Origin: an uncultured Pseudomonadota bacterium
GTDB taxonomy: Bacteria; Pseudomonadota; Gammaproteobacteria; Methylococcales; Methylomonadaceae
DNA: 48,955 nucleotides
Assembly (NCBI GenBank): GCA_903867225.1
Contig: CAIPQN010000018.1
Coordinates: 1 to 48,955, forward strand
Reading direction: 5' to 3'
Part shown: positions 5,212 through 19,734 of the stretch, piece by piece
How the letters are laid out: the number at the start of each line of letters is the position of its first letter
How positions within the stretch are numbered: the first letter of the stretch is position 1
The notes under the pieces: generated by a model
The model's input: only the letters and a program-made list of their open reading frames with translations
Told to the model about the DNA's origin: nothing
Database searches by the model: none
Program-made: the position numbers and the translations under genes

Positions 5212-6915
5212 TTATGCAGCAACGGAAGAATTCAGTTTAGTAATTGCCTCGTCAGTATCAAAAAATAGTTGCCCATTTAAATGTGTGAATAAATCACTTC
5301 TGTATAATTTATCCAATAAAAAGCCTTTTATTTCAGCAAAATTCAATGTAATTCCAATGGTTTTTAAACTACGATTTAATTGCTCTAAGGCTTCTAAAGC
5401 CGTCATATCAATATCGCTCACAGATGCGAAAATCAAAACGATGTGTTTAACATTGGGCGCATTGCGTAATTCAGTTTCAATAAATTCTTCAATGAAATTA
5501 ACATTTGCAAAGGTGATATTCTCATCGATTCGCATGAGAAGTAAATGCTCCCATGTTTCGACCTGATGACGTTTGATATTGCGATAAGTTTTTGTGTTTG
5601 GAAGTCGCCCAACAACTGCAATATGTGGGTGACTTGCTTTGCGTAAATGACTGGCAAATGTTAAAAAAATCCCCAACATAATGCCTTCTTCAATACCGAA
5701 AATTAGAACACTGATTAACGTCGCAAGTTCAGCAATTCCATCGCCTTTATCGTATTTCCAAGTATGAAAAATGCTACGAAATTTTACTAGCGGAATAATC
5801 GCTACCAAAATAATTACTGCCAAAGTCGCTTTGGGAATGTTACTAAACCACGAACTGAAAAACATTACGGCAATCGCTAAAATAATTGCCGCAATAACCA
5901 TTGCAATTTGTGTGCGTGCGCCAGCGGTGAAGTTCACCATCGTGCGACTAAAACCACCTGCGACAGGCATTCCACCAGAAATTGCAGTGGTTAAATTGGC
6001 AACGCCAAGTGCAATCAATTCTTGATTTGGATCAATTTTTTCACTGCGTAAATTTGCGACAACTTTCGCAATCGCCACACTTTCAACATAGGCAATTAAC
6101 GCGATAAAACTCGCGGGGGCAGATAACACTTTCCACTTTTCTAAATCAATAAAATCCAAACTTAAATGAGGCAAACCAGCAGGAATTTCGCCAACAATCG
6201 CAAGATGTTGAGCAGTTAAGTTCCATTCGCTAACGGCAATTGTTGTTAATGCCACTGCAACTAATGCCGCACATTTGCTAATTGCAGTTGTGAGAGATGC
6301 TGATACACCGCCCATTTTGAGCAACGTTGATAACGGTTTTCCGAAAAAAAGTAATATCGCTAAAGCCACAATCGCCACTAAAAACGTTGTGTTATTTGTT
6401 GCTTGGAAATAAGTTTCGTAGCAATTTGCATCAATGCCGCACGTTGGTGATTTTAATCCTAGCGTTTGCGGTAATTGGCTACCAATAATTAATAATGCCG
6501 CGCCGCTGGTGAAGCCCGTCAAAACAGGATGGCTAATAAAATTAACCAATTTACCCATTTTAAACACTGCCATTAACAACATAATCATGCCACTTTCAGC
6601 CGATAAAATTATCGCGCTTTGTAATGGATTTTCTAGTGCCGCTACTTCTGGGGATTTCAATGCGACGGCAATCATGATTGCCGCAATCGAAACAGGACCT
6701 ACAGAAAGTGTGCGACTTGTTCCTAAAAACGCGTAAAACAAAGGCGGTAAAATGCTTGCATAAAGCCCAAATTGTGGAGGTAAACCTGCCAAAATAGCAT
6801 AAGCAATACCTTGTGGCACTAGCAAAATAGCCGTAATAATGCCCGCAAATAAATCGCCATTAAAATCTTCGCGGCGATATGTTTTGAGCCAACTAAAAAT
6901 TGGAAAAAATGACAT
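5212..6915 (-). CDS. SulP-family anion transporter with STAS domain
   Basis: This 567-residue protein has the SulP layout: an N-terminal cytosolic stretch, a membrane domain of many hydrophobic helices starting with the conserved LVPQGIAYAILAGLPP, the TSRTLSVGPVS segment, and a C-terminal STAS domain from about residue 440. SulP proteins move sulfate, bicarbonate, chloride or organic acids. It is the last gene of a minus-strand run behind a beta-carbonic anhydrase, SQR and persulfide dioxygenase. Bicarbonate uptake is suggested by the carbonic anhydrase, while sulfate or sulfite export is suggested by the sulfide genes. The sequence alone does not decide between them. It seems complete, and a strong terminator follows. 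Confidence 0.93.
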   Translation of the reverse strand: MSFFPIFSWLKTYRREDFNGDLFAGIITAILLVPQGIAYAILAGLPPQFGLYASILPPLFYAFLGTSRTLSVGPVSIAAIMIAVALKSPEVAALENPLQSAIILSAESGMIMLLMAVFKMGKLVNFISHPVLTGFTSGAALLIIGSQLPQTLGLKSPTCGIDANCYETYFQATNNTTFLVAIVALAILLFFGKPLSTLLKMGGVSASLTTAISKCAALVAVALTTIAVSEWNLTAQHLAIVGEIPAGLPHLSLDFIDLEKWKVLSAPASFIALIAYVESVAIAKVVANLRSEKIDPNQELIALGVANLTTAISGGMPVAGGFSRTMVNFTAGARTQIAMVIAAIILAIAVMFFSSWFSNIPKATLAVIILVAIIPLVKFRSIFHTWKYDKGDGIAELATLISVLIFGIEEGIMLGIFLTFASHLRKASHPHIAVVGRLPNTKTYRNIKRHQVETWEHLLLMRIDENITFANVNFIEEFIETELRNAPNVKHIVLIFASVSDIDMTALEALEQLNRSLKTIGITLNFAEIKGFLLDKLYRSDLFTHLNGQLFFDTDEAITKLNSSVAA

Positions 6916-7023: not shown

Positions 7024-7602
7024 TTAACTCGCAATTCCTATTTTCGTAGCTTCGGGTACTTCAATTAAAGCACCTGTTTTGACATCGTAAATGTAACCAT
7101 AAACAGGAATATCTGACGGGACAAGTGGATGATTTTTAATGCGCGTGACATCTTCAACAACGCTTTTTGCTAAATCGCTAATCGTCAACCAAGCAATGTG
7201 TTTTGCTTCATCTGAACCACCGCCTTCACAGCAATCGTGCCAACCATTTTCATCAACGGAAGCCGTTTTTAAACTGGTCGCAAGCAAACCACGCATAATT
7301 TCATCGGTGAATGTTTCCATACCGCAGTTGGTGTGATGAATCACAAACCATTCTTTCGTACCAAGTAATTTGTAAGAAATCACTAAAGAACGAATTGCGT
7401 CATCGCTGGCACGACCACCAGCGTTACGAATAACGTGTGCATCGCCTTCGCTCAATCCAGCATATTTAGCGGGATCTAAACGTGCGTCCATACACGTTAA
7501 AATAGCGAATTGGCGAGCAGGTGGCATAGCTAAATCGCCTTTATCAAATCCTGCAACATAACCACGATTAGCAAGTAAAACTTCATTAAGAACTTTTGAC
7601 AT
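7024..7602 (-). CDS. Beta-class carbonic anhydrase
   Basis: This enzyme interconverts CO2 and bicarbonate. The zinc site is visible as CMDARL (Cys37, Asp39) and HHTNCGM (His90, Cys93), with [15 protein letters not shown] between them. This is the short clade resembling mycobacterial Rv1284. I take the start at 7602 rather than an upstream ATG at 7614, because GAGG stands 6 bases before it and the upstream codons overlap that ribosome site. That gives 192 residues. It lies between SQR and SulP on one strand. It probably feeds or drains bicarbonate for SulP, or buffers CO2 during sulfide oxidation; that link is inferred. Confidence 0.94.
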
Positions 7603-7643
7603 AAAACACCTCATTGTTGTTTTAAATTAAATTTTTTCTTCAA

Positions 7644-8894
7644 TTACTTTTCATCAACAAACTTTTTTGCGTAACTCGATTTGTGTGGAATATCGAATCG
7701 AATCCCTTTCAACATCAAATCCCAATACATCCACGGGAAACCAATGGTTTTTCCAATCCACCAAATCCAACGTGGTACACGCGGATCTAAAAGTGGGAAT
7801 GATGGGGTAATTTTACTGTCGTAACTGAATTCAGCTAATAGAACCGTATTCAATGAAGTGACCAATGGACATGAACCGTAGCCATCATATTTTGGTGATA
7901 ATTCTTCTGCTTTCATAAGATGCAAAATGTTATCAACGACCACTGGTACTTGTTTGCGAACTGCAGCCGCTGTTTTGGCATTAGTTGTTGAAGCGGCATC
8001 GCCTAAACCAAAAACATTTTCATATTTGTGGTGTTGCAATGTGTTCGGATGAACATCAATACGACCATCAGCATTTGCTAGAGGACTCTGTTTAATAAAA
8101 TCAGGCGCACTTTGAGGTGGCGTGACATGAATCATATCGAAGTTTTCAACAACTTGTTTTTTGTTGCCGTCAGCATCGGTGATTTCAAATGTGGCTGTTT
8201 TTGCTTCGCCATCAACTGCAATTAAATTGTGCGCGAAATGGGTTTTAATGCCGTAACTTTCAACTATTTTTGCCAATGGTTTCGCAAAGAATGGAATGCC
8301 AAACATCGCGCCACCTACGTTGAAAAATTCGACGCTGATTTTGTCGGCTATTCCTTTTTTACGGAAGCGATCAGCCGCCATGTACATAATTTTTTGTGGT
8401 GCGCCTGCACATTTAATTGGCATTGCTGGTTGCGTGAATAATGCGCGACCTTCTTTCAAATTTTTAATACATTCCCAACTGTATTCAACTGTTTCAGGTG
8501 AGTAATTACTACACACACCATTTTTGTTAAGCGTTTCTTTTAACCCAGCAATTTTGTGCCAATCCATTTGGAAACCAGGACAAACCACTAAGTAATCGTA
8601 ACTAATTACATCACCAGATTTTAATGTAACCGTGTTTGCTTCAGGTTGAAATGTGTCTGCGTATTCTTTAATCCATTTGATGTTCGTACCAAATAAATCA
8701 GCTTCGTTGCGCGTGTGCTTTGCTAACGTTGATTCACCACCACCAATAATTGTGAATGCTGCTTGATAATAATGTTTTTCACTGGGTTCAATAACGGCGA
8801 TGTCGATGTCTTTATTTACTCGGCGCATATTGTTTGCGACTGAAACGCCTGCTGCGCCGCCACCAACAATTAACAAGGTATGATGCTGTGTCAT
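7644..8894 (-). CDS. sqr: Sulfide:quinone oxidoreductase, type II-like
   Basis: This FAD flavoprotein of 416 residues should oxidise sulfide to persulfide or polysulfide and pass electrons to membrane quinone. The N-terminal dinucleotide motif is IVGGGAAGVS (residues 9-18), and a second FAD contact reads FGLGDAAST (295-303). Two cysteines stand where the redox pair of SQR lies: Cys162 in PIKCAGAPQK and Cys342 in YGSCPLVTS. Cys128 is a third candidate. The C-terminus has an amphipathic WIWWIGKTIGFPWMYWD stretch suited to membrane docking. It follows the persulfide dioxygenase gene, the usual SQR partner. The related flavocytochrome c sulfide dehydrogenase is less likely because there is no signal peptide. 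Confidence 0.9.
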   Translation of the reverse strand: MTQHHTLLIVGGGAAGVSVANNMRRVNKDIDIAVIEPSEKHYYQAAFTIIGGGESTLAKHTRNEADLFGTNIKWIKEYADTFQPEANTVTLKSGDVISYDYLVVCPGFQMDWHKIAGLKETLNKNGVCSNYSPETVEYSWECIKNLKEGRALFTQPAMPIKCAGAPQKIMYMAADRFRKKGIADKISVEFFNVGGAMFGIPFFAKPLAKIVESYGIKTHFAHNLIAVDGEAKTATFEITDADGNKKQVVENFDMIHVTPPQSAPDFIKQSPLANADGRIDVHPNTLQHHKYENVFGLGDAASTTNAKTAAAVRKQVPVVVDNILHLMKAEELSPKYDGYGSCPLVTSLNTVLLAEFSYDSKITPSFPLLDPRVPRWIWWIGKTIGFPWMYWDLMLKGIRFDIPHKSSYAKKFVDEK

Positions 8895-8993: not shown

Positions 8994-10085
8994 TTATTTG
9001 TTCCAACCTTCAAAGCCACCTGCTAATGATAAAACATTGGTATAGCCTAAAGTTTGCAATGTGTGTGCGGCTAACGCAGAACGTCCACCCGTACGGCAAT
9101 AAATTAACACAGCTTTGGTTTTATCTGCCAACTCTGGAATTGTATTTAATTTGAATTCCAAAACACCACGAGGTAATAATTGTGCGTTGTCGATATGACC
9201 CGCTGCAAATTCACTTTCTTCGCGAGTATCAACCAAGGTGATATTGCCTTCAGCCAATAATTTACGCGCCATTTCTACATTCACTTCGGTGATATGTTGT
9301 TTTGCAATGGCAACCAAATCTTGCCCTGTTGTCCCTGTTTGCATTTGCATCATGCCAAATTTCGCGTCAACATCTCGTATTTGAACCGCTTGTGTACGTT
9401 CATTTTCATCTAAACCACAGTAACGATTTGCAGGAACTGCTTGATCAATCAAACGTGGCGCAGGCAAATTCAAGTTATTCATAATTTCAATGAACTGTTC
9501 ACGAGTTTTATTTGCTAAACGCGGATTAGTTGTGCGTTCTTGTTCGATATTACTTACCCAACGTTGTTGATAATCGTGACCTGGATAAACTAATGTGTCA
9601 CCTGGTAGCGTGAATAAACGTTGTGTAATTGCATCGTACAACGCACCCGAATCACCACCTTGAAAATCGGTGCGTCCACAACCGCCAATAAATAATGAAT
9701 CACCCGAAAATAAACGGTCATTCCACAAAAAAGAGGTGCAACCTGGCGTATGTCCTGGGGTTGGAATGGCTTTAATTTTTTCTTCTCCAAGCATGAAAAC
9801 ATCGCCGTCATTGATTTCAATATCAACAAGTTGTGCGCCACCGAATTTACTCACACAGGTTTTTGCACCTGTATGTTGACGTAACAAACCACTTGCAGTG
9901 ATATGGTCAGCGTGAACGTGTGTTTCAAACGAATAAACCAATTTCAAACCATGTTCTTTCAACAAGTTTAAATAAGTGTCTAAATGTGTATTCACAGGAT
10001 CGATAAATGCAGCTTCTTTGCTTTTATCATCAGCAATTAAGTAAGTGTAAGTCCATGTGGCTGGGTCGAATAATTGTTTAAACAT
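8994..10085 (-). CDS. Persulfide dioxygenase fused to a rhodanese domain
   Basis: This 363-residue fusion has an ETHE1/Blh-type metallo-beta-lactamase-fold persulfide dioxygenase at residues 1-240. The metal motif HVHADH covers residues 56-61, then GHTPGC, FSGDSLFIGGCGRTDFQGG and YPGHDY. A rhodanese domain at about 255-363 carries the catalytic Cys330 in YCRTGGRS. Persulfide dioxygenases oxidise glutathione persulfide to sulfite, and the rhodanese can move sulfur between sulfite, thiosulfate and glutathione persulfide. It is the first gene of the SQR operon and has a sigma-54 promoter with paired upstream palindromes. The fusion architecture is known from sulfide-oxidising bacteria. Confidence 0.93.
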   Translation of the reverse strand: MFKQLFDPATWTYTYLIADDKSKEAAFIDPVNTHLDTYLNLLKEHGLKLVYSFETHVHADHITASGLLRQHTGAKTCVSKFGGAQLVDIEINDGDVFMLGEEKIKAIPTPGHTPGCTSFLWNDRLFSGDSLFIGGCGRTDFQGGDSGALYDAITQRLFTLPGDTLVYPGHDYQQRWVSNIEQERTTNPRLANKTREQFIEIMNNLNLPAPRLIDQAVPANRYCGLDENERTQAVQIRDVDAKFGMMQMQTGTTGQDLVAIAKQHITEVNVEMARKLLAEGNITLVDTREESEFAAGHIDNAQLLPRGVLEFKLNTIPELADKTKAVLIYCRTGGRSALAAHTLQTLGYTNVLSLAGGFEGWNK

Positions 10086-10188
10086 GATTGCTACTCCGAA
10101 AAGATTAGTTAGTTTTTTATTGTTGTTGAGACGTTTAAATCTGGATTGGTATTCAGTTTATTTTTCTCCTTGTTTCTCGATAGATGTT

Positions 10189-10203
10189 GCAGACAATGTG
10201 CCA
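10189..10203 (-). promoter_or_regulatory. Sigma-54 promoter of the persulfide dioxygenase-SQR operon
   Basis: On the minus strand the sequence reads TGGCACATTGTCTGC, with GG at 10202-10201 and GC at 10190-10189 and exactly 10 bases between. This is a near-consensus RpoN -24/-12 element. It lies about 104 bases before the persulfide dioxygenase start codon. Between it and the upstream palindromes, TATCAAGGTTTAT (10220-10232 region) resembles an IHF core with a mismatch, as expected where looping is needed. The IHF assignment is weak. Confidence 0.85.
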
Positions 10204-10279
10204 GTTTTTCTGGCTTAGTATAAACCTTGATAATGCTTACGATGTGACTTATTTCTGGGAATTTTTATGTTTCATTTTT

Positions 10280-10313
10280 GTTTCACAGAAACATAAACTC
10301 GTTTCCATGAAAC
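10280..10313. promoter_or_regulatory. Paired GTTTC-N3-GAAAC palindromes, putative enhancer sites
   Basis: Two perfect 5-3-5 inverted repeats, GTTTCACAGAAAC (10280-10292) and GTTTCCATGAAAC (10301-10313), are centred 21 bp apart, two helical turns. They lie 96 and 117 bp upstream of the -12 element of the sigma-54 promoter, the usual distance for an enhancer-binding protein. The same arrangement recurs at 18737-18770. A 19-base block around the first palindrome, containing TTTGTTTCACAGAAACA, is also found there in the reverse orientation. Confidence 0.78.
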
Positions 10314-10336
10314 GCTCTTGAAACCATAAACATTTT

Positions 10337-10825
10337 TTAATGCCAGCCACCATATTGTGTTGTCGTGTCACCTCGGAAACCTACGCTAGTTTTGTTTGCA
10401 TCGGGTGTGTGGACGCTATTACTCGCTGCTGAAATCATATTTTGGCGCGTGTAACCGCCTAAGGCTTTTGCTTTCGCTGCGATATTTGTTGTGAATAAAT
10501 TGATGTCGTAATTTGTTACTTCTACGTCAATCACAATCGAAATTAAACTGTCAGAACGCAACACAATAGGTAATTTTGTTTGAGCAGGAATTTCTAATTG
10601 ATAACGACCGTTTTCAACATTGGCAGACGAAATCACATTTTCACCGTCAAGAGCGTCAACATTACCTGTTTTACTTTCAACTTTTCCAGATAGTACAACT
10701 GCTGTTTCAGTGTATTTTGTAACGGATTGCGTTGCAGGTTTTGATTGTTGCATTTCATTACACGCGCTTAATAAAAACGCATTTAGCAAACCAATCAACG
10801 CTAATTGTTTGTTAATAATCAGCAT
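10337..10825 (-). CDS. Putative lipoprotein of unknown function
   Basis: A hydrophobic signal ends in a lipobox, LLSAC, so the mature protein should be lipidated at that Cys and periplasmic or on a membrane face. The body is about 140 residues with a beta-rich, carboxypeptidase-regulatory-like look (LSGKVES, NGRYQLEIPAQTKLPIVLRSD) and ends YGGWH. I place the start at 10825 (MLIINKQ) because GGGGA stands 8 bases before it. The longer reading from 10846 would place the ribosome site inside the coding region. It overlaps the end of cydX by 14 bases in another frame, implying translational coupling. No family function is recognised. Confidence 0.7.
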   Translation of the reverse strand: MLIINKQLALIGLLNAFLLSACNEMQQSKPATQSVTKYTETAVVLSGKVESKTGNVDALDGENVISSANVENGRYQLEIPAQTKLPIVLRSDSLISIVIDVEVTNYDINLFTTNIAAKAKALGGYTRQNMISAASNSVHTPDANKTSVGFRGDTTTQYGGWH

Positions 10826-10916
10826 CTGCATCTTCCCCAAGTTCAAGCCACATTGAATTGATAATTGCCAACGCTGCCGCCAAACTTACCCCTAAAATCC
10901 ACGCGAAATACCACAT
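10812..10916 (-). CDS. cydX: Cytochrome bd oxidase small subunit CydX
   Basis: This 34-residue ORF begins MWYFAWILG, the diagnostic CydX/YbgT N-terminus, followed by a single transmembrane helix and an acidic tail ending GEDADADY. CydX packs against CydA and stabilises the heme b595/d site. GAGG stands 8 bases before the ATG. It usually lies directly after cydB, but here it is about 3.9 kb downstream, behind a rhodanese, a barrel remnant, a multiheme cytochrome and an outer-membrane barrel. The stop codon lies inside the lipoprotein gene. The motif makes the identification strong despite the length. Confidence 0.92.
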   Translation of the reverse strand: MWYFAWILGVSLAAALAIINSMWLELGEDADADY

Positions 10917-10934
10917 AATTTTGTCCTCTAAATT

Positions 10935-11927
10935 TTAAAATTTATATTCAAACCCAAGCCAAACGTTATTGTTTTTTACGTTTACCATTTCTGTATTTAA
11001 TTTCCGATTGCCATGTTGCCAACCTAATTTAAGTTGCGTTGCGTGCGTTAATTCATATTCCAATTCAAGTTCGCCTTGATAGATATTTTCATTTGCGCCA
11101 AAACGTTCATCTTCTTCAATGTGGCTCATCGACGCATTGTGTTCGTAATCGAAAATCAAATTTGCGGTCAATTTTTCTAACAATTTCACTTTTAATTCAC
11201 CTGATGCGTAATGATTTGTGTAAGATAAATCATCTGCAAAATGGGTTACGCGATGATGTTCAGCACTGCCCCGCTCGTAGTGATAACCAACTAAAAGTTC
11301 AACATCTTCGCTTATGTCCCATTCCAAATGCGGACCAATTGTCCAAAATTGCGTGTCACGATAAACAAACGGTTCATTGTAATTTCGTAAACCATAACGA
11401 CTTAATAATCGAATCGTAAAATCTTCATTCAATTTCTGGTCAATGTGAAAAGACCAATAATGACTTGTTAAAATTTCATCGTGCTGTGCTTCTTCGCCAG
11501 TTGGTTGCATAAACGTGTTTTTGCCTAAAAATAAATCAGGCACGAAGTTGTAATGCAAACTCAGTTTTGTATCGGTTTCAAACGATTGCGACGCTTCAAA
11601 ATCAAATAATCCATGCGTAAAAGCGGTTTGATTTGTGAAAACATAACCGCCAGCATCGGCAGAAAAACTAATTTCACCGAGCGAATTATGTCCAGTCCAT
11701 TCTGCTTCAACACTCGGTTCGTAGACAAAATCACTACCTTGACCTGTGTTATCAATGTTTGGTTGCGTTGGGTCATCTTTCAGCGAAAGTCGGCGCGTTG
11801 CCGAAAACAACGCCACATCGTCAGTGAAATAGCCTGCGTTATCCGTTTTGAATTGCCATTCTGCAAATACAGCTGAACTGCTCATTATCAGCATAAAAAC
11901 AGATAGATATTTAATCGAAATTTTCAA
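10935..11927 (-). CDS. Outer-membrane beta-barrel protein
   Basis: This 330-residue protein has a signal peptide cut after SSAVFA. The mature part is rich in alternating hydrophobic/aromatic strands and acidic loops and ends FEYKF with the terminal Phe expected by the BAM machinery. A barrel of roughly 14-16 strands is plausible. The first codon is TTG with a poor ribosome site; no ATG keeps the signal peptide intact, and the truncated relative at 14230 also starts with TTG. It follows the pentaheme cytochrome gene by 30 bases and precedes cydX by 18. It could form a channel for the cytochrome, but classic MtrB-like barrels are about twice this size. Confidence 0.8.
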   Translation of the reverse strand: MKISIKYLSVFMLIMSSSAVFAEWQFKTDNAGYFTDDVALFSATRRLSLKDDPTQPNIDNTGQGSDFVYEPSVEAEWTGHNSLGEISFSADAGGYVFTNQTAFTHGLFDFEASQSFETDTKLSLHYNFVPDLFLGKNTFMQPTGEEAQHDEILTSHYWSFHIDQKLNEDFTIRLLSRYGLRNYNEPFVYRDTQFWTIGPHLEWDISEDVELLVGYHYERGSAEHHRVTHFADDLSYTNHYASGELKVKLLEKLTANLIFDYEHNASMSHIEEDERFGANENIYQGELELEYELTHATQLKLGWQHGNRKLNTEMVNVKNNNVWLGFEYKF

Positions 11928-11956
11928 TGTATATACCGTTTTTCTGTCTTAAAAAC

Positions 11957-14209
11957 TTAATGCACAACGCTAAATGTATTTAACGCAATACGGCTTGTTT
12001 TTGAACTCGACGCATTAAACATCGTTTTGAAATCATCGCCTTCGTTGCTTGGTTCGCTGAATAAATCTTGTGCGAAAGAATAAGCAAGTGGTTGATGAAG
12101 TAATTCCGCTTCAACGGTGTAATTACTACCCATTAAATTTGGAATGCGGTAAGTAATTTGGTCACTACCACCCACAAAGTTGGCATCGTTTAACGCATCA
12201 CCAACGACTTTAATGTCGTTAGGCGCAGTAGCTTTGTTGAAACCTGTTGGCAAAATTCGGTTATCTTTCAAATAAACCATGCCACGCAACAAGGTATAAG
12301 TCACTTCGTTCAAGTTGTTACCCATAATCGCTTCATAAACTTGAACTTGCTCAGGTGACGTAATCAAATCGTAATGAGGCTCGAATGTTGTACGATTTTC
12401 GTCCGCATCAACGCCAACAATACTGCCGTTTGCATTGACTTTACCCGATTCAAACACAATCGCATTTGACGCATCTTTAACCGTAACGTGTAACACCACG
12501 CGACGTGATGGATACGCGCTTGGCAATTTGTGACCTGTCGCACTGTTGATTTTCAAGGTAATGTTCAAATTGTTATCTGAACCCAAAGACTGACTAACTC
12601 TGTCAATCGTTGCTGAACTGTTGAGCATCGTTTGCGTTTTATCAATCGTTTCGTTGAAATCTGCTGTTGCCGCCACAACGCCCAATTGGGTTTTATTGTT
12701 GTTGAAAATATCTAGCATCAATTTATTTGCACCGACAAAATCATGTTTGCCAAAATTATTGCGTGTGCCGAAATTTCTTGGTGTTGTCGCAATTTTCACC
12801 CCATTTGACTTTGGCATATGGCAGTTTTGACAGGTTTTTAATGTCGCCGTTTTTGCATGGTCACTGTTTTCCCATTCGCTGTAAGACATTTGCTCTGGGA
12901 ATTCACTTTCAGGCGTGGTACTCAACAAATTACCCGATTGGTCAACAAAAGGCGTTTTTAAGTTATGACAAGTGCCGCACAATTTTGAAGATTCCATGTG
13001 CGAACTACCTGTTGGTGTGTAGCCTGTTTGCATAATCATTGGGTTTGCAAATGGATTCATGTATTGACCATAAATCTTTTTGTCGTTACCAATTTCATAA
13101 TGCCCCGTATAGCTGCTCAACGTGCCTAAATTTGGTGCATTTTGAATTTGATGGCAAAGCGTACAACCAACGCCACTCATGGCTTCATCGTGACGCGGAT
13201 TCGTTGCACTCAAGAAACCACCGTCTGCTGCAAGAATTGATTTGGGTTCGTTGTAGCTTTTCGCTTCAAAGTTCGCCATTGGCGCATGACAACGGGTACA
13301 TTTATCGCTTATTACGTCAACTAAATGTGGCGCACGATTGATTTCGCTACGGACATAGGCTTTCCAAAGTGGGTCGCGTGCCGCGTTACCCATCATTGTT
13401 GCAGACCAATCTTTTTGAATTGAAACGTCTTTGCCAGTGTTGTCTGTTAAACCATCATGGCAAGTAGCACAAATGCTTGCGCCTTTGAAATGTTCTGAAG
13501 AAAACGAAGAATCACCTTCCGATTGAGGTGGCAAAACAAAACCATTTGTTGATGCAACGGTGGTCGCGCTAAATGTATCTGATATACCACCGACCGTTAA
13601 AGTTGCATTTTTAGTGGTGCCATTTGTGGTTGCAGATGTTATTTTTACAGTAACCGTATTGCCGTTAGTTACCGTCCCTGCTTTTGTAACAAATGCGCCA
13701 CCGTTAATTGAATACGAACCACCACTAATAGCAATAGCTGTTGCGGCGTTAATATCTATTATGGAAATACTATTTGACGTTATTGGCGTGTTTAACGGTA
13801 AATTGGTTTGGTCAATAAAACTAAACGCATTTGGGGTTGTATCTTTTGCAACAGTGGTAACACTAAACGTATCTTTTACATTACCTATGGATAAAACAGC
13901 ATCCTTTTTAGTGCTGTTTAATTTCGATGACGTTTGTTTAATGCTGACTGTTGCACCATTTAAAACTGTTGTTTTACTGGTTCGGTACGCAGCACCATTT
14001 ACTGAAAATGAACCACCTGTAATGCTAATCGTTGTTTTCGTGTCAATGCCGCTAACTGTAATCGTATTAGAGATAATTGCCGTATTTAATGCCACGTCCG
14101 TTTGGTCAATAAACGTAAATTTATTTGGTGTTGTATCCGCAGCAAAAACACTCAAGCTAATAAAATATGACCAAAGAAAGAGAATCATTAAATGTTTATG
14201 TTTTGGCAT
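11957..14209 (-). CDS. Exported pentaheme c-type cytochrome with two N-terminal repeats
   Basis: This 750-residue protein has a signal peptide ending SVFA near residue 23. Two tandem repeats of about 97 residues follow (25-118 and 123-216), each starting DTTPN and holding an FIDQT segment and an SITGG/AISGG motif; they look like extracellular beta-sandwich modules. Then come five heme-binding motifs: CATCH (247), CTRCH (304), CTLCH (349), CGTCH (411) and CQNCH (460). A heme-free C-terminal beta-rich region fills 480-750. It should carry electrons in the periplasm or on the cell surface. GGAA precedes the ATG at good spacing. The electron partner is unknown; the neighbouring barrel gene is a candidate. 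Confidence 0.88.
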   Translation of the reverse strand: MPKHKHLMILFLWSYFISLSVFAADTTPNKFTFIDQTDVALNTAIISNTITVSGIDTKTTISITGGSFSVNGAAYRTSKTTVLNGATVSIKQTSSKLNSTKKDAVLSIGNVKDTFSVTTVAKDTTPNAFSFIDQTNLPLNTPITSNSISIIDINAATAIAISGGSYSINGGAFVTKAGTVTNGNTVTVKITSATTNGTTKNATLTVGGISDTFSATTVASTNGFVLPPQSEGDSSFSSEHFKGASICATCHDGLTDNTGKDVSIQKDWSATMMGNAARDPLWKAYVRSEINRAPHLVDVISDKCTRCHAPMANFEAKSYNEPKSILAADGGFLSATNPRHDEAMSGVGCTLCHQIQNAPNLGTLSSYTGHYEIGNDKKIYGQYMNPFANPMIMQTGYTPTGSSHMESSKLCGTCHNLKTPFVDQSGNLLSTTPESEFPEQMSYSEWENSDHAKTATLKTCQNCHMPKSNGVKIATTPRNFGTRNNFGKHDFVGANKLMLDIFNNNKTQLGVVAATADFNETIDKTQTMLNSSATIDRVSQSLGSDNNLNITLKINSATGHKLPSAYPSRRVVLHVTVKDASNAIVFESGKVNANGSIVGVDADENRTTFEPHYDLITSPEQVQVYEAIMGNNLNEVTYTLLRGMVYLKDNRILPTGFNKATAPNDIKVVGDALNDANFVGGSDQITYRIPNLMGSNYTVEAELLHQPLAYSFAQDLFSEPSNEGDDFKTMFNASSSKTSRIALNTFSVVH

Positions 14210-14229
14210 AAAAATTCCATTTATTAGCG

Positions 14230-14436
14230 TTAGGATTTTGCATAATTAAATCTATTTTTATCAATTTTTGGTTGCGTTGGGTTGTCTTTCAGAGAAAGTC
14301 GGTGCGTTGCCAAAAACAGCGCAACATCGTCAGTGAAATAGCCTGCGTTATCGGCTTTGAAAGCCCATTCCGCGTGAGCAAGCGAATCACCAATAGCAAA
14401 TAACATGAAAGCCTCATATTTAAGTAACTTTTTCAA
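14230..14436 (-). pseudogene. Truncated copy of the neighbouring barrel gene
   Basis: A 68-codon remnant retains a signal-like N-terminus and then EWAFKADNAGYFTDDVAL and RLSLKDNPTQPKID, closely matching the first 60 residues of the intact barrel at 10935-11927 (EWQFKTDNAGYFTDDVAL, RLSLKDDPTQPNID). The DNA at about 14268-14375 aligns with about 11753-11860 at high identity by eye. After that it ends in an unrelated short tail and a stop, with no barrel strands. It suggests an old tandem duplication of a barrel-cytochrome unit followed by deletion. A short expressed protein cannot be excluded. Confidence 0.8.
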
Positions 14437-14456
14437 AAATACTTACCGCGTTTTTA

Positions 14457-14810
14457 TTACTTATTCTGCCATGCACGATAGGCTTTTAATCCCCCTTCGA
14501 GATAGCGCACATTGCTGTAGCCCATATTCCGCAAGCTATCCGCTGAAAGTACACCACGATAATTCACATTACAATAGGTGATGATTGGCGTGTCTAAATT
14601 AGAAATTTCATCTTCGACATTCATTTCTAATTTGCCACGGCTAATATGTTTAGAGCCTGCAATATGATCGGCATCGTGTTCTTCTTTGTCACGAATATCC
14701 AACGCTAACACGCCGTCTGCCAAAAGAGCATCGACTTCATGCGGTTGTACAGGTGAAATTCGTGCGCGGGCGGCTTCGCCCATTTGGATAAATTTGTCAG
14801 AATAAGCCAT
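14457..14810 (-). CDS. Rhodanese-domain protein
   Basis: This single rhodanese domain of 117 residues has no signal peptide. It begins with a helix, then EVDALLADGVLALDIRDKEEHDADHIAGSKHI. The active-site loop is CNVNYRG, retaining the nucleophilic Cys and Arg but differing from the common CRSGxRS seen in the other three rhodaneses here. That suggests a different substrate or a persulfide-relay role. It lies directly downstream of cydB on the same strand, 45 bases away, so it is probably co-transcribed with the oxidase. Confidence 0.87.
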   Translation of the reverse strand: MAYSDKFIQMGEAARARISPVQPHEVDALLADGVLALDIRDKEEHDADHIAGSKHISRGKLEMNVEDEISNLDTPIITYCNVNYRGVLSADSLRNMGYSNVRYLEGGLKAYRAWQNK

Positions 14811-14855
14811 TTTCTTTCCTCATGATTGATGTTGATGATGATTATTTGTCAGTTG

Positions 14856-15995
14856 TTAATACATTGTATGTTGATTTTCTTGCACTTGTTCAACCGTCAC
14901 TTTACCGCGCATGATGCGATAAACCCAAGTTGTGTAAGCTAATACAATCGGCATAAATACCACAGTTGCGGCAAGTAACATTTTCATTGTGTAATGACTT
15001 GCACTTGAATCCCAAATCGTCAAACTGCTTGTAATTGAAAGCGTTGAAGGTAATACAAATGGGAACATTGAACCGCCTGCGGTCACAATCGCGCCAATCA
15101 TTGCTAAACTGCTCAACACAAATGCCGTTGCAGAATGATGTTTAGCGGTAAAAAACGGTGCTGATAACGCTCCGCCAACTGTTAATAATGGCGCAAGTAA
15201 AAGCAATGGATAAGTGCCGTAATTTGCAAGCCATAACCCCGTGCTTTTTTCGACGGTTTTATGTAATGGGTGAGCGGTGATGTTTGTATCAATTGCCGAT
15301 GTGACGCGATAACCTTCCACGACAAATGCAATATAAAGTCCCGCTAATAAAAACAACACTACAAATAAAATGCTGCTCCAACGAATCACAGCTTGAGCGC
15401 GTTCGGCAATAAAACTTTCGGTTTTCCAATGCAAATATACTGCGCCGTGCATCACGCATAATGACACGCCAACTAATACGCAAAGCAACGGAAATAATGT
15501 AAATAAATCAAATAATCCGCCTGTGTAAGTTGAACGCATATCGCCATCGAGTTCAAATGGCAAACCGAGCATTAAATTTCCTGCCGCTAGACTTAATACG
15601 ACCGCTGGCACTGTTCCACCGACAAATAAACCCCAATCCCAGAAACTACGCCATTCAGGATTTGCTAATTTACTACGGTAATCAAATCCGACAGGACGCA
15701 AAAATAAGGCGAATAACAACAGCAATAAACCCGCATAAACACCTGAAAATAAAACCGCATACACAATTGACCATGCACCAAACGTAATCCCGCCAAGTGT
15801 GACCAACCACGTTTGATTACCTTCCCATGTTGGACCAACTGTGTTGAGCATCACACGCCGTTCGTCATCAGTTTTGCCTAAGAATGGCAATAACATTGCA
15901 ATCCCAAAATCAAAACCATCCATCACCGCAAAGCCGCAAATCAAGAAGACTAAAATTGCCCACCAAATAATGCGTAACGATTCATAATCAAACAT
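14856..15995 (-). CDS. cydB: Cytochrome bd ubiquinol oxidase subunit II
   Basis: CydB is a 379-residue polytopic membrane protein that pairs with CydA in the bd oxidase. The N-terminus MFDYESLRIIWWAILVFLICGFAVMDGFDFG is characteristic. I place the start at 15995, not the longer ORF start at 16049, because AGGAG stands 6 bases before it and the extra codons lie in cydA. It overlaps cydA by 8 bases. Bd oxidases resist sulfide, which poisons heme-copper oxidases, so its place in this operon makes functional sense. Confidence 0.96.
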   Translation of the reverse strand: MFDYESLRIIWWAILVFLICGFAVMDGFDFGIAMLLPFLGKTDDERRVMLNTVGPTWEGNQTWLVTLGGITFGAWSIVYAVLFSGVYAGLLLLLFALFLRPVGFDYRSKLANPEWRSFWDWGLFVGGTVPAVVLSLAAGNLMLGLPFELDGDMRSTYTGGLFDLFTLFPLLCVLVGVSLCVMHGAVYLHWKTESFIAERAQAVIRWSSILFVVLFLLAGLYIAFVVEGYRVTSAIDTNITAHPLHKTVEKSTGLWLANYGTYPLLLLAPLLTVGGALSAPFFTAKHHSATAFVLSSLAMIGAIVTAGGSMFPFVLPSTLSITSSLTIWDSSASHYTMKMLLAATVVFMPIVLAYTTWVYRIMRGKVTVEQVQENQHTMY

Positions 15996-17553
15996 GACCT
16001 GCTCCTTGTTTTTCAAAGTGATAATTACCTGTATGCAAACTACTTGCACCTAAACGAATGTATTTCACCATTAAGAATAATTCGATACATAGCAACGCGG
16101 TGTACATCACAACAAACCCCGCGATACTGCCGTAGAGTTGTCCACTACTTAGACTTGAGGTACTTAAATGCGTGGGTAAAATGTTCGCAATTGTCCAAGG
16201 TTGACGACCGTATTCAGCCACAACCCAACCTAATTCGCTCGCAATCCAAGGTAATGGAATTCCAAAAAATGCCATTTTTAACAACCAACGTTGATTGTGG
16301 GCATCACGTTTCATGTTGTGATAAAACGAGGCGGCAAAAATAAATAACATAGTCACGCCACAAAACACCATGCCGCGAAATGTCCAAAACATCGGTGCAA
16401 CTTTAGGAATGGAATCTTTTATTGCCGAGTCAATTTGAGCAGGTGTCGCATCAACGACATTTTCGGTATATTTTTTGAGTAACAAACCGTGACCTAAATC
16501 GACTTTATGTTTTTCAAAAATCGCTTTGGCAACTTCATTGGTTTTGTCTTCACGCAAAATTTGCAAATTCTCATACGCAATCATGCCGTTTTCAATACGG
16601 TGACGTTTTCGTTCCCGAATGACATCCAGTCCATCGACTTTTTCATCAATTGAACGGGTCGCAATCAAACCTAATAAATAGGGAAATTTAATCGCGTAAT
16701 CGGTAGTTTGGGTTTCTTCATTTGGAAAACCCACTAACGTAAAAGAAGCAGGAGCTTCTTCAGTTTCCCATTCAGCTTCAATGGCAGCGAGTTTAGCGCG
16801 TTGAACTTCACCAACGGTGTAACCGCTTTCGTCTCCGAGAAGAATCACAGACAAAATAGACGCTAAACCAAATCCCGATGCAATCCGAAATGAACGCCGC
16901 GCAAACGCCACATCTTGATGTTTGAGCAAATAAAATGCACTAATACCAAGCACAAACATTGAACCTGTAACATAACCTGCCGCAACGGTATGAACAAATT
17001 TCACTTGGGCAACAGGATTAAAGAAAATATCAGCAAAACTGGTAAGTTCCATTCGCATCGTGTCGTAATTGAATTCTGCACCAACAGGGTTTTGCATCCA
17101 CGCATTCGCAATCAAAATCCATAACGCTGACAAATTTGTTCCCAAAGCAAGCAACCACGTTGTTGATAAATGTTGCAACTTGGTCATTCTGTCCCAACCG
17201 AAAAAGAATAAGCCAACAAATGTGGATTCTAAAAAAAACGCCATCATGCCTTCGATGGCAAGCGGTACGCCGAAAATATCACCGACATAATGCGAGTAAT
17301 ACGACCAATTTGTGCCGAACTGAAATTCCATCGTTAAGCCAGTTGTGACACCCATCGCAAAGTTAATGCCGAACAATTTTCCCCAAAAGCGGGTCATGTC
17401 TTTGTAAATTGACTTATTTGTCATCACATAAAGCGATTCCATAATCGCCAAAATAAACGACAATCCCAGCGTCAACGGCACAAACAAAAAGTGATACATC
17501 GCCGTAATAGCGAATTGCATCCTCGATAAATCTACAACTTCATTAGTAATCAT
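15988..17553 (-). CDS. cydA: Cytochrome bd ubiquinol oxidase subunit I
   Basis: CydA carries hemes b558, b595 and d and oxidises quinol while reducing O2 to water. The protein is 521 residues, the length of the E. coli subunit, and includes the long Q-loop (about residues 255-380, with charged stretches such as RERKRHRIENG). The family motif GRQPWTI follows. The N-terminus has the heme ligand region RMQFAITAMYHFLFVPLTLG. Its ATG overlaps the stop of cydP (ATGA), and its end overlaps cydB. The subunit seems intact. Confidence 0.97.
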   Translation of the reverse strand: MITNEVVDLSRMQFAITAMYHFLFVPLTLGLSFILAIMESLYVMTNKSIYKDMTRFWGKLFGINFAMGVTTGLTMEFQFGTNWSYYSHYVGDIFGVPLAIEGMMAFFLESTFVGLFFFGWDRMTKLQHLSTTWLLALGTNLSALWILIANAWMQNPVGAEFNYDTMRMELTSFADIFFNPVAQVKFVHTVAAGYVTGSMFVLGISAFYLLKHQDVAFARRSFRIASGFGLASILSVILLGDESGYTVGEVQRAKLAAIEAEWETEEAPASFTLVGFPNEETQTTDYAIKFPYLLGLIATRSIDEKVDGLDVIRERKRHRIENGMIAYENLQILREDKTNEVAKAIFEKHKVDLGHGLLLKKYTENVVDATPAQIDSAIKDSIPKVAPMFWTFRGMVFCGVTMLFIFAASFYHNMKRDAHNQRWLLKMAFFGIPLPWIASELGWVVAEYGRQPWTIANILPTHLSTSSLSSGQLYGSIAGFVVMYTALLCIELFLMVKYIRLGASSLHTGNYHFEKQGAGHV

Positions 17554-17723
17554 TTTAAATTTTCCTCGTTCAATGTTGCCGAGCCGAATAGTCGATTGTT
17601 TAATGTTTCTTCATTCACTTTTACTTTTTGTCCTGCGAAAAAAAGCCACCAAACCAAACCGAATAACGTGAATTTGACGATGATGGCGAGTGTCATTTCC
17701 CAAGAAAAACGAGTTAAACGCAT
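17550..17723 (-). CDS. cydP: Cytochrome bd putative small subunit CydP
   Basis: This 57-residue ORF was read by hand just upstream of cydA. It starts MRLTRFSWEM, has one transmembrane helix (about residues 11-30, ending GLVWWLFFAG) and a short charged tail. Size, topology, the WW/FF helix end and position before cydA match the CydP small-subunit family. The stop TGA overlaps the cydA start as ATGA, so the two should be translationally coupled. It starts 5 bases after the preceding stop codon. A plus-strand ORF across the same bases is a shadow. Confidence 0.78.
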   Translation of the reverse strand: MRLTRFSWEMTLAIIVKFTLFGLVWWLFFAGQKVKVNEETLNNRLFGSATLNEENLK

Positions 17724-17728
17724 GGCGG

Positions 17729-18229
17729 TTATTGTTGATGATGTTGCGAATGACCAGAAACAGCGTGTCGCGCATGATCACTAAGTTGAGCATCAAAAAA
17801 TTGATGAATCGCGGTGACTAAATCGGCTTTTTCGCTGGTGTAATCAATCTGTGCGCCGTCTGGTAATTCTTTATAAATAATGCTTAATGTGTCTTTTTCA
17901 GCAGAACGTAACGTTTGCAAACCTGCCATTTTGTTACCGTGAATTTTTACAGGATTTGAAAAATCACCTTGATTAAATTCCCTCGCAATTTTCGACAAAT
18001 GTTCACGAATTAACGCAATTTGTGACGCATCATTTTTATCTTTTGCGATGACTTGTTGAACTCCGCCTTTTTCGACTTTGTTAAAAATGTGCAATGTTTT
18101 TTCTAAATCAAACGGCATCACATGAACACCTTTTGAAACAACTTCATCTAAACGCGCTTCGCTGGCAGGTTCAACAGCAAAAACACTGGTTGAAATTAAC
18201 GCTAGACTAATCAAGGCAATTTTTTTCAT
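17729..18229 (-). CDS. Periplasmic His-tailed protein of unknown function
   Basis: This 166-residue protein has a clear signal peptide cut after STSVFA. The mature part contains VHVMPFDLEKTLHIF, a GGVQQVIAKD segment and FDAQLSDHARHAVSGHSQHHQQ, a His-rich end suited to metal binding. I recall close relatives carrying the label aspartate carbamoyltransferase; nothing in the sequence supports that enzyme, and the export signal argues against it. It lies 1 base after the periplasmic rhodanese gene and 5 before cydP, so it is part of the cytochrome bd operon. A metal- or heme-related periplasmic role is possible but unproven. Confidence 0.8.
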   Translation of the reverse strand: MKKIALISLALISTSVFAVEPASEARLDEVVSKGVHVMPFDLEKTLHIFNKVEKGGVQQVIAKDKNDASQIALIREHLSKIAREFNQGDFSNPVKIHGNKMAGLQTLRSAEKDTLSIIYKELPDGAQIDYTSEKADLVTAIHQFFDAQLSDHARHAVSGHSQHHQQ

Positions 18230-18230
18230 G

Positions 18231-18611
18231 TTAATTCGCCTGAATCGTTTTTAAATTGGCTTTTTGCCACGCATTCAAACCGCCGTCCATGTTGTGAACA
18301 TTGGTAAAGCCTGATTTTGCCAAAATATCTGCCGCTCTCGCAGAACGTGTGCCGCTGCGGCATTGTGTAATCACAGGTTGATTTTGATATTTTGCCAATT
18401 CCTTCAAGCGGTTTTGAATGTCATTCAATGGAATATGAATCGCATTATCAATATGTCCCGCGTTCCATTCGTCATTTTCACGCACATCAATAATGACGGC
18501 ATTTTGTTCTGATTGCATTTGGGCGGCTTGTTGTGGTGAAACAGCTGGCACATCAGCTAAAACTGACGAAATACCAAATAATGACGCGAGTAAGATAATA
18601 ATTTTTTTCAT
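18231..18611 (-). CDS. Periplasmic rhodanese, first gene of the cytochrome bd operon
   Basis: This exported single-domain rhodanese has a signal peptide MKKIIILLASLFGISSVLA, and the active-site loop CRSGTRS contains the catalytic Cys and Arg. I prefer the ATG at 18611, with GGAG 8 bases upstream, over a TTG at 18617, giving 126 residues. It should handle thiosulfate, polysulfide or persulfide in the periplasm. It is the promoter-proximal gene of the run leading into cydPAB, and a sigma-54 promoter lies about 43 bases before its start. Confidence 0.9.
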   Translation of the reverse strand: MKKIIILLASLFGISSVLADVPAVSPQQAAQMQSEQNAVIIDVRENDEWNAGHIDNAIHIPLNDIQNRLKELAKYQNQPVITQCRSGTRSARAADILAKSGFTNVHNMDGGLNAWQKANLKTIQAN

Positions 18612-18653
18612 AATCAATTCTCCATCTAGGATAATTATTTAAAATAAAACATT

Positions 18654-18668
18654 GCATGGCTTATGCCA
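18654..18668 (-). promoter_or_regulatory. Sigma-54 promoter of the rhodanese-cydPAB operon
   Basis: The minus strand reads TGGCATAAGCCATGC, with GG at 18667-18666 and GC at 18655-18654 and exactly 10 bases between. It departs slightly from the consensus TGGCAC-N5-TTGC but keeps the invariant GG and GC. The start codon of the periplasmic rhodanese is 43 bases downstream. Paired palindromes lie 88 and 109 bp upstream, the same geometry as at the SQR operon. Confidence 0.78.
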
Positions 18669-18736
18669 AAAACATTGAGGCGTAATGATACCGTGCTTTT
18701 TGAGTATTATATTTTTTTACCTTGAACAAGTTTAAT

Positions 18737-18770
18737 GTTTTAATGAAACAAAAAACTGTTTCTGTGAAAC
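18737..18770. promoter_or_regulatory. Second pair of GTTTC-N3-GAAAC-type palindromes
   Basis: GTTTTAATGAAAC (18737-18749, one mismatch) and GTTTCTGTGAAAC (18758-18770, perfect) are centred 21 bp apart, exactly as at 10280-10313. A lone GAAAC half-site follows at 18778-18782. The pair serves the leftward sigma-54 promoter as an enhancer. It also ends only 26 bases before the ATG of the activator gene on the other strand, so binding there could repress that gene's own transcription. Confidence 0.76.
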
Positions 18771-18795: not shown

Positions 18796-19734
18796 ATGCA
18801 AATTGATAATGTTCAAAATTTTCATGGGTTAATTAGTCGTTCACCTGCTATGCACGATGTGTTTCAAATCATTCAAACTGCTGCTGAAACTGAGGCAACC
18901 GTTTTAGTGCGTGGTGAAAGTGGTTCTGGAAAAGAGTTAGTAGCACGCGCAATTCACTATTTAAGTGGACGACGCGACGCGCCTTTTTTAGCGGTAAATT
19001 GCGCTGCATTATCAGCGAATTTACTTGAAAGCGAATTGTTTGGTCATGTGCGTGGCGCGTTTACAGGCGCAATGAAAGATCATCATGGTTTATTTCAACG
19101 CGCTCATGGCGGCACGTTATTTTTAGACGAAATAGCAGAATTACCCATGGAATTACAAGCGAAATTATTGCGTGTAATTCAAGAACGCAATTTTTTACCT
19201 GTAGGTGGTGTGCTTTCAATGCCTGTTAATGTACGATTGGTAGCAGCGACACATCGAGCATTACGCGAAGAAGTGAAAAATGGGCGATTCCGTGAAGATT
19301 TAATGTATCGGTTGCGTGTTGTGCCAATTTATCTACCGCCGTTGCGGGAACGACGTGAAGATATTAGTTTGTTAATTTGGCATTTTATTGAAAAACATAA
19401 TGCTGAAAATCGCCGCAAAATCGAAGAAATTGAACCAGAAGCTATGCGTTTGTTATTGGATTATTCATGGTATGGAAACATTCGAGAACTGCAAAATGTG
19501 GTGGAATATGCGTTTGCCGTTGGACGTGGAACGATTTTGAAATCGACAGAATTACCACCCGAATTTCGTGAAATACATTTACCTATTGTTTCAGCTAAAA
19601 CTATTCCGATTCAAAATGAAAAAAGCGCGATTGAACGCGCTTTAATCGAAACCAAAAATGTAAATGCAGCAGCTAAAAGTTTAGGGATGAGTCGTGCAAC
19701 ATTTTGGCGAAAACGAAAGTTTTACGAAATTTAA
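18796..19734 (+). CDS. Sigma-54 enhancer-binding protein without a sensor domain
   Basis: This 312-residue AAA+ activator of RNA polymerase-sigma54 has Walker A GESGSGKE at residues 40-47, the sigma54-contacting GAFTGA loop at 87-92, Walker B GGTLFLDE at 105-112, an R-finger region [10 protein letters not shown], and a Fis-type helix-turn-helix at 288-312. Only about 12 residues precede the AAA+ core, so there is no receiver, GAF, V4R or other input domain, as in PspF. The only cysteine is Cys69 in NCAAL, a position common to the family. A weak GGAA precedes the ATG. It is divergent from the cydPAB operon and most likely binds the paired palindromes. FisR, a sigma-54 activator of sulfide oxidation elsewhere, is the nearest functional analogue but has a sensor domain. 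Confidence 0.93.

Follow-up and report, generated by a model that had tools for sequence, protein, structure and literature searches.

A FisR-type activator gene without an N-terminal domain and palindrome pairs at sulfide oxidation and cytochrome bd oxidase genes of a probable methanotroph

The 48,955-nucleotide stretch of DNA analysed here (contig CAIPQN010000018.1 of assembly GCA_903867225.1, from an uncultured member of the Methylomonadaceae; the whole stretch is called the window) contains two gene rows, one for persulfide dioxygenase (PDO) and sulfide:quinone oxidoreductase (SQR) and one for rhodanese and the cytochrome bd oxidase CydAB, and the question raised is whether both rows are controlled by a single activator, encoded beside them, and whether such control depends on sulfide. 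An earlier, sequence-only reading of the window proposed one sulfide-linked regulon with two sigma-54 promoters and identical paired-palindrome enhancers. According to the reading reached here, to which a probability of about 0.8 is given, the palindrome pairs would be FisR-type enhancers that place both rows in a joint regulon, while the activator would have lost its N-terminal domain and control would be constitutive or set by activator dose.

The host assembly (2,642,847 bases in 110 contigs, approximately 95% complete) encodes RpoN and a PmoA/AmoA-family gene, and its nearest named kin are Methylococcales genomes, including Methylobacter, all of which makes a methanotrophic host very likely. 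Comparisons were made with a family sample of 201 genomes (Methylococcales, methanotrophs) and a class sample of 369 genomes. Genus labels are g1 (the genus of the host) and g9, f4 is a family label, and G and L numbers denote genomes and loci, respectively.

Palindrome pairs at sigma-54-type promoters

The two proposed promoters with GG-N10-GC cores were borne out (Table 1), both on the minus strand and pointing at the PDO and rhodanese genes, respectively, in a genome that supplies the RpoN such promoters need. When the whole window was scanned for sites with the GG and GC core and at least 9 of 11 consensus letters, nine were found, seven of them on the plus strand, and the two promoter sites were the sole minus-strand ones. 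The site of the PDO-SQR promoter was also present in G011, the near twin of the host (L056/L049).

Upstream of each promoter lay two GTTTC-N3-GAAAC palindromes with centres 21 bp apart, exactly as first read. Those at 10280-10292, 10301-10313 and 18758-18770 were perfect and that at 18737-18749 had one mismatch, in agreement with the earlier count of three perfect palindromes out of four. The palindrome centres, placed about 90-115 bp from the -12 element in the sequence-only reading, lay about 97 and 118 bp from the -12 GC at the PDO-SQR site and about 89 and 110 bp from it at the rhodanese-cydAB site. The description of the enhancers as identical held for pattern and spacing but not for letters, and across the genus the spacing was 20-22 bp.

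Single palindromes were weak evidence, with eight in the window at one mismatch or fewer as opposed to 3.5 expected (1 of 100 shuffles equalled eight); the pair was strong evidence. In the full-genome scan that had been called for, pairs with 21-bp spacing and up to two mismatches occurred only at the two places in the window, and none was found with the reversed pattern, which served as the control in all pair scans. At three mismatches one additional pair appeared on a different contig, as did one for the control, and pairs with 20- or 22-bp spacing at up to three mismatches numbered 0 and 0 in the whole genome (controls, 2 and 0).

Conservation of the pair was evident in the family sample, where 37 pairs with up to two mismatches were found in 30 genomes, compared with nine for the reversed pattern. 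Thirty-two of the 37 were within 650 bp upstream of a gene for PDO, SQR, the activator or rhodanese, the last being counted as a target only for the host and G011. With 27 of these 32 pairs there was also a sigma-54 site that faced the gene and matched 8 or more of 11 letters, its -12 GC lying 68-163 bp (median 102) from the pair edge. In the class sample, three pairs were found outside the host genome as opposed to six for the control. A test free of the fixed pattern was also performed, with activator genes found by protein similarity, each half-site required to match at 8 of 10 positions or more and any spacing from 14 to 60 allowed. These loci were a partial set (65 distinct genes, compared with orthologues in 131 of the 201 genomes), and one was dropped for too little upstream DNA. 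Pairs were present at 27 of the 64 genes tested, 25 of them at 20-22 bp (21 bp in 17, 20 bp in six and 22 bp in two), whereas shuffled upstream regions gave 0.86 pairs per round over 50 rounds, and 0.02 at 20-22 bp.

The position of pair 2, which ends 25 bp before the activator start codon, bears on another explanation, namely that the palindromes are operators of a different regulator, such as a repressor of the activator gene, and lie near sigma-54 promoters by linkage only. Binding at such sites must affect the activator gene, given this distance and the 3-10 bp between the end of the pair and the first ATG in 14 of 16 rows with a long activator. The linkage explanation is nevertheless very improbable, as pair 1 and many pairs of relatives belong to PDO or SQR promoters that have no activator gene closer than 650 bp (for example L152, L155, L182, L184) and the distance from pair to sigma-54 site is conserved; the loci were not searched for other conserved regulator genes.

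Some arrangements in g1 depart from the simple one. In L060 (G002) the activator gene is about 5 kb from the operon, and the operon retains a pair at 8144-8178 (22-bp spacing) as well as a sigma-54 site, which by its layout is a natural separation of enhancer from activator gene. Three successive palindromes, in steps of 21 and 22 bp, precede the rhodanese-PDO-SQR genes of G003 (L057, 7887-7942). G006 has two short activators on contigs C196 and C427 (L062, L065), one linked to PDO-SQR with a pair and the other, on C196, with neither PDO nor a pair in the stretch examined.

Relation of the activator to FisR

The protein encoded just beyond pair 2 (18796-19734) contains an AAA+ sigma-54 interaction domain (PF00158, 233.6 bits), with a GAFTGA loop visible in the translation, followed by a C-terminal Fis-type helix-turn-helix (PF02954, E 6.9e-08, above cut-off). 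As with FisR, its gene is linked to those for PDO and SQR, with the cyd genes intervening in the window. In a tree of 63 rows, the activator and its relatives joined FisR of Acinetobacter baumannii at 100/97, apart from 11 other activators; the program flagged long branches in this tree, and the outgroups were the best-scoring distant activators. By this placement the activator is a FisR orthologue, sharing descent with the experimentally tested FisR of A. baumannii, which is encoded divergently from PDO1-SQR-TauE-hsd and whose deletion abolishes sulfide induction of that operon (PMC7315123).

The same arrangement of sites was noted in A. baumannii. Thus, a plasmid-labelled record (L205) carries fisR divergent from PDO and SQR genes, the products of which are 39% and 45% identical to those of the window, and between fisR and PDO-SQR there are two perfect palindromes 21 bp apart together with a sigma-54 site of 10/11 letters. 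In a second A. baumannii record (3.66 Mb), the single pair at up to three mismatches was just upstream of fisR. FisR is a known activator of sulfide oxidation that works with sigma-54, and the pair is likely its enhancer. The words palindrom, UAS and enhancer are absent from the main text of PMC7315123.

Similar searches around more distant proteins were negative or led elsewhere. No PDO, SQR or CydA resembling those of the window was found at E 1e-5 near 64 more distant activators (L072-L135), with L204, L205, L209 and L067 as positive controls. Plasmid homologues from Caballeronia and Paraburkholderia, considered as FisR, adjoin sensor-kinase-type genes and not PDO or SQR, and were not used. 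Membership of PspF was rejected, the NCBIfam model TIGR02974 giving 260.3 bits against a cut-off of 443.55 and no psp gene being present among the neighbours scanned.

Enhancer-binding proteins commonly use two dimer sites about two helical turns apart to nucleate an AAA+ ring, and a DNA loop then brings this ring to RpoN holoenzyme. Such a mechanism agrees with the conserved spacing and distance. The FisR-type activator would bind both pairs, each as two dimer sites two turns apart, the DNA would loop over the roughly 90-120 bp between pair and promoter, and the AAA+ ring would open RpoN holoenzyme at both GG-N10-GC promoters, so that PDO, SQR, SulP and the cytochrome bd oxidase would be switched on together. 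Since pair 2 and its counterparts abut the activator start codon, the activator likely represses its own gene through pair 2.

The N-terminal domain and sulfide dependence

The claim that a shared activator makes this a sulfide-linked regulon stood in part, i.e., for the single regulon; the sulfide response was not supported by the anatomy of the activator, because the N-terminal domain is absent in the genus. An N-terminal regulatory domain is part of FisR as described for A. baumannii (PMC7315123), and FisR of Cupriavidus senses reactive sulfur through three cysteines (PMC12170894, PMC9774590), whereas the window activator has neither this domain nor the cysteines that would lie in it. Its one cysteine is at a position of the AAA+ core that is kept in 44 of 44 long forms. 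An N-terminal cysteine was kept in 35 of the 44 aligned long forms, A. baumannii being outside the 35, and A. baumannii FisR is also described as lacking the Cupriavidus cysteines (PMC7315123).

Long and short forms were distinguished by the length of open frame before the AAA+ part rather than by Pfam; L028 (G025), with 70 open codons there, was set as short by eye since it was unlike the other long forms. Outside g1, orthologues were mostly open frames of 440-503 codons. Of nine long methanotroph orthologues run against Pfam, four matched a PAS family above cut-off and four below it (E <=0.003), the sole unmatched one being the protein of a sponge symbiont; no PAS match was found in A. baumannii FisR. 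Within g1, a search of 18 genomes found the gene in 15, in 16 copies whose open frames ran to 311-350 codons; the N-terminal domain was absent in 15 of 15, and the genes inspected had an in-frame stop no more than 37 codons ahead of the aligned start. In G017 (L058; frame MKQKATMQFNNIQNFHG), the start of the long relatives (MKQ...) leads straight into the linker that precedes the AAA+ domain, and 5 bp separate the end of the pair from the ATG, as in long relatives, so this gene looks like a clean loss of the N-terminal segment. In g9, four of the five genomes with the gene lack the domain (G025, G075, G097, G115), and G129 has it.

On the tree, the short form requires three changes, all forced by well-supported branches; the bootstrap was not yet fully stable. 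Losses are the natural but not the forced reading of these changes, and by that reading g1, the second methanotroph lineage (g9) and an Acinetobacter plasmid lost the domain independently, the window activator being derived from a full-length FisR with a PAS-like N-terminal domain. The third case is Acinetobacter junii plasmid pA (L209), which encodes a natural FisR of 327 aa without the N-terminal domain. This fisR is divergent from PDO-SQR-TauE and a gene annotated as ubiquinol oxidase subunit I, and the plasmid, from mining soil, was typed as mobilizable.

If the short activator were a decaying remnant, the promoters would be unused or driven by another enhancer-binding protein, and the loss of a whole domain together with eight further matches to the activator's protein class in the host genome (E up to 1e-60) agrees with this. 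Such decay is very improbable, however, in view of the ratios of nonsynonymous to synonymous substitution (dN/dS) of the short genes, which were 0.03-0.07 in 9 of 10 comparisons (first 255 codons only; L016 not computable; dS above 1 in six of nine, so that ratios are rough). Purifying selection on the remainder of the short activator is strong. Walker A, GAFTGA and the helix-turn-helix are all intact in the sequence, the 16 short genes in 15 genomes of g1 form one monophyletic set, and pairs are retained before the operons.

The main rival to constitutive or dose-set control accepts the same regulon and has sensing taken over by a partner, i.e., a separate sulfide- or persulfide-sensing protein that restrains the short activator as PspA holds PspF, such that control would still depend on sulfide. 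In favour of a partner, the activator is built like PspF, from an AAA+ part and a helix-turn-helix alone; a further input would make it easier to do without the N-terminal domain in several lineages; and sqr expression rises with sulfide plus dissolved organic matter in Methylobacter sp. S3L5C, a lake methanotroph (PMC12211021) whose FisR may be long or short. Against a partner, none was identified, although neighbourhoods were compared for the window's own proteins only and a partner could be missed; the score against the PspF model was far below cut-off; and a search of the host genome for the lost domain, which might have been split off as a separate sensor, gave no hit better than E 0.04. 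Such a partner is on balance unlikely.

Several activators whose N-terminal domain binds a ligand become constitutively active once that domain is removed. By analogy, the regulon would be on irrespective of sulfide, whenever activator and RpoN are present, and would not be gated by sulfide through this protein; this is held at roughly even odds.

A number of observations weigh against the reading preferred here, that of FisR-type enhancers acted on by a shortened and constitutive or dose-set FisR. The expectation of constitutive FisR after domain loss is drawn from other activators, and no experiment on FisR and these genes in a methanotroph was found in the literature searched. Many of the 37 pairs come from close relatives and thus are not independent. 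Five of the 37 were without a recognised target (G218, G116, one of two in G068, and those on contigs C200 of G006 and C68 of G021, which lie 213 and 304 bases from a contig end, the former with a sigma-54 site). No pair at threshold was present at 37 of the 64 protein-selected genes, all counted as misses; these included family f4, with loci of 63-65% G+C (L029, L031-L033), and g1 genes of G002, G015, G014, G008 and G006 (C196). In G004, PDO is preceded by a perfect pair, but no GG/GC-core site scored even 5/11, and no orthologous activator was found in its draft. Finally, no clear palindrome pair accompanies the short FisR of A. junii.

Coupled sulfide oxidation and bd oxidase genes

That one activator couples SQR and PDO to the bd oxidase, as the sequence-only reading held, was supported by the genome-unique pair and its conservation before PDO and SQR, by the same pair at A. 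baumannii fisR-PDO-SQR and by sister rows behind one enhancer. Thus, G003 (L057), G010 (L061) and G009 (L063) carry rhodanese-PDO-SQR-SulP-CydA-CydB on one strand with one enhancer and one sigma-54 site (in G003 with a 166-aa protein between SulP and CydA), an order that supports the coupling, and L152, from another genus, has PDO-SQR-SulP-CydA-CydB, a gap of about 0.7 kb separating CydA from SulP. In the host genome and near twin G011, the genes form two rows, and a separate pair and promoter precede each of them. The ubiquinol oxidase subunit I of the A. junii plasmid is 41% identical to CydA of the window over the part available. In A. baumannii, sulfide raises cydAB expression, with no tie to FisR in the part of that report consulted (PMC7315123). 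A shared regulon that joins the PDO/SQR and bd oxidase genes is, by these comparisons, highly probable, and electrons from SQR would enter the quinone pool and exit through a presumably sulfide-resistant oxidase.

Table 1. Features of the window, with positions, strands and supporting matches.
Feature	Position	Strand	Details
Enhancer pair 1 (candidate)	10280..10313	.	GTTTCACAGAAAC-N8-GTTTCCATGAAAC, centres 21 bp apart
Enhancer pair 2 (candidate)	18737..18770	.	GTTTTAATGAAAC-N8-GTTTCTGTGAAAC, between activator gene and cyd genes
Sigma-54-type promoter of PDO-SQR genes	10188..10203	-	TGGCACATTGTCTGCA, TGGCAC-N5-CTGCA, 10/11 consensus letters
Sigma-54-type promoter of rhodanese-cydAB genes	18653..18668	-	TGGCATAAGCCATGCA, 9/11 consensus letters
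Activator of the AAA+ sigma-54 class, with Fis-type helix-turn-helix and without N-terminal domain; FisR orthologue by tree placement	18796..19734	+	312 aa
PDO, metallo-beta-lactamase-fold persulfide dioxygenase fused to rhodanese	8994..10085	-	PF00753, PF00581
SQR, sulfide:quinone oxidoreductase-like flavoprotein	7644..8894	-	PF07992; best NCBIfam NF049943, 217 bits vs cut-off 525
Beta-carbonic anhydrase-like protein, next after SQR, same direction	7024..7614	-	PF00484
SulP-family anion permease, adjoins SQR in sister species too	5212..6915	-	PF00916, PF01740
Rhodanese, first gene after promoter 2, signal-peptide-like start (by eye)	18231..18617	-	PF00581
166-aa protein without family, signal-peptide-like start (by eye)	17729..18229	-	no Pfam match
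CydA, cytochrome bd oxidase subunit I	15988..17553	-	PF01654, 574.5 bits
CydB, cytochrome bd oxidase subunit II	14856..16049	-	TIGR00203, 415.3 bits vs cut-off 117.3
Second rhodanese	14457..14810	-	
Multihaem cytochrome, weakly MtrC/MtrF-like	11957..14209	-	5 CXXCH motifs
Putative beta-barrel outer-membrane protein (putative porin)	10935..11927	-	PF10082, below cut-off
169-aa protein, final gene ahead of promoter 1, lipoprotein-like (by eye)	10337..10846	-	

Behind promoter 1 the order of genes was PDO-rhodanese fusion, SQR, carbonic anhydrase and SulP permease, and behind promoter 2 it was rhodanese, 166-aa protein, CydA, CydB, rhodanese, cytochrome, porin and small protein; from order and direction each row is probably one operon. 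CydA and CydB both belong to their families by the matches listed. A 60-aa fragment at 14257-14436 (minus strand), between multihaem cytochrome and second rhodanese, is 60% identical to the porin N-terminus, and in near-twin locus L056 the porin directly adjoins rhodanese with no cytochrome between, so the cytochrome looks inserted or brought by duplication.

Among known systems, the window activator is most like FisR of A. baumannii (A1S_1707) and Cupriavidus pinatubonensis JMP134, with which it shares the sigma-54 AAA+ and Fis-type helix-turn-helix plan and a gene divergent from PDO-SQR; with A. baumannii FisR, its closest clade in the tree, it also shares the 21-bp palindrome pair and promoter geometry. 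Unlike the FisR systems compared, the window regulon would directly take in cydAB and the multihaem cytochrome. PspF, the phage-shock activator, has two enhancer sites between pspF and its divergent target operon and represses itself; the window activator resembles it in plan and in divergence from a target operon but differs in model score, in scanned neighbours of FisR type rather than psp type and in enhancer letters. Activators of the NorR, NtrC and NifA types likewise use paired palindromic upstream sites at sigma-54 promoters, with their own sites, signals and targets, and their NCBIfam models matched only the AAA+ part of the activator, below cut-off. In other bacteria, SQR and PDO genes are controlled by the persulfide-sensing repressors SqrR/BigR and CstR (PMC7315123, PMC12170894), which are of other families; none was present among 20 scanned window proteins.

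Since the activator belongs with FisR, a known regulator with known targets, the regulon is not a new kind. Three points are new as far as the literature searched shows: Acinetobacter and methanotrophs have the FisR enhancer pair in common, cydAB would be a direct part of the regulon, and the N-terminal domain has been lost more than once. No title on FisR binding sites was noted among the matches listed, which leaves room for a published Cupriavidus site, and no paper in the literature searched joined methanotroph and FisR.

With these sites, FisR would gain a DNA code that can be read from sequence: two GTTTC-N3-GAAAC palindromes, 20-22 bp apart, at about 100 bp from a sigma-54 promoter. Sulfide-defence regulons could then be sought where expression data are lacking, and sulfide oxidation in methanotrophs would be linked to the bd oxidase by shared control. 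The repeated domain loss provides natural mutants for the question of how FisR senses sulfide without the Cupriavidus cysteines (PMC7315123). It is tentatively suggested, at slightly less than even odds, that methanotrophs have at least twice made a sulfide-inducible regulon permanent by cutting off the N-terminal sensor of FisR while the DNA code and promoter geometry were kept, with the Acinetobacter plasmid as a third such cut, so that sulfide oxidation and a sulfide-proof oxidase may have become housekeeping functions beside methane oxidation.

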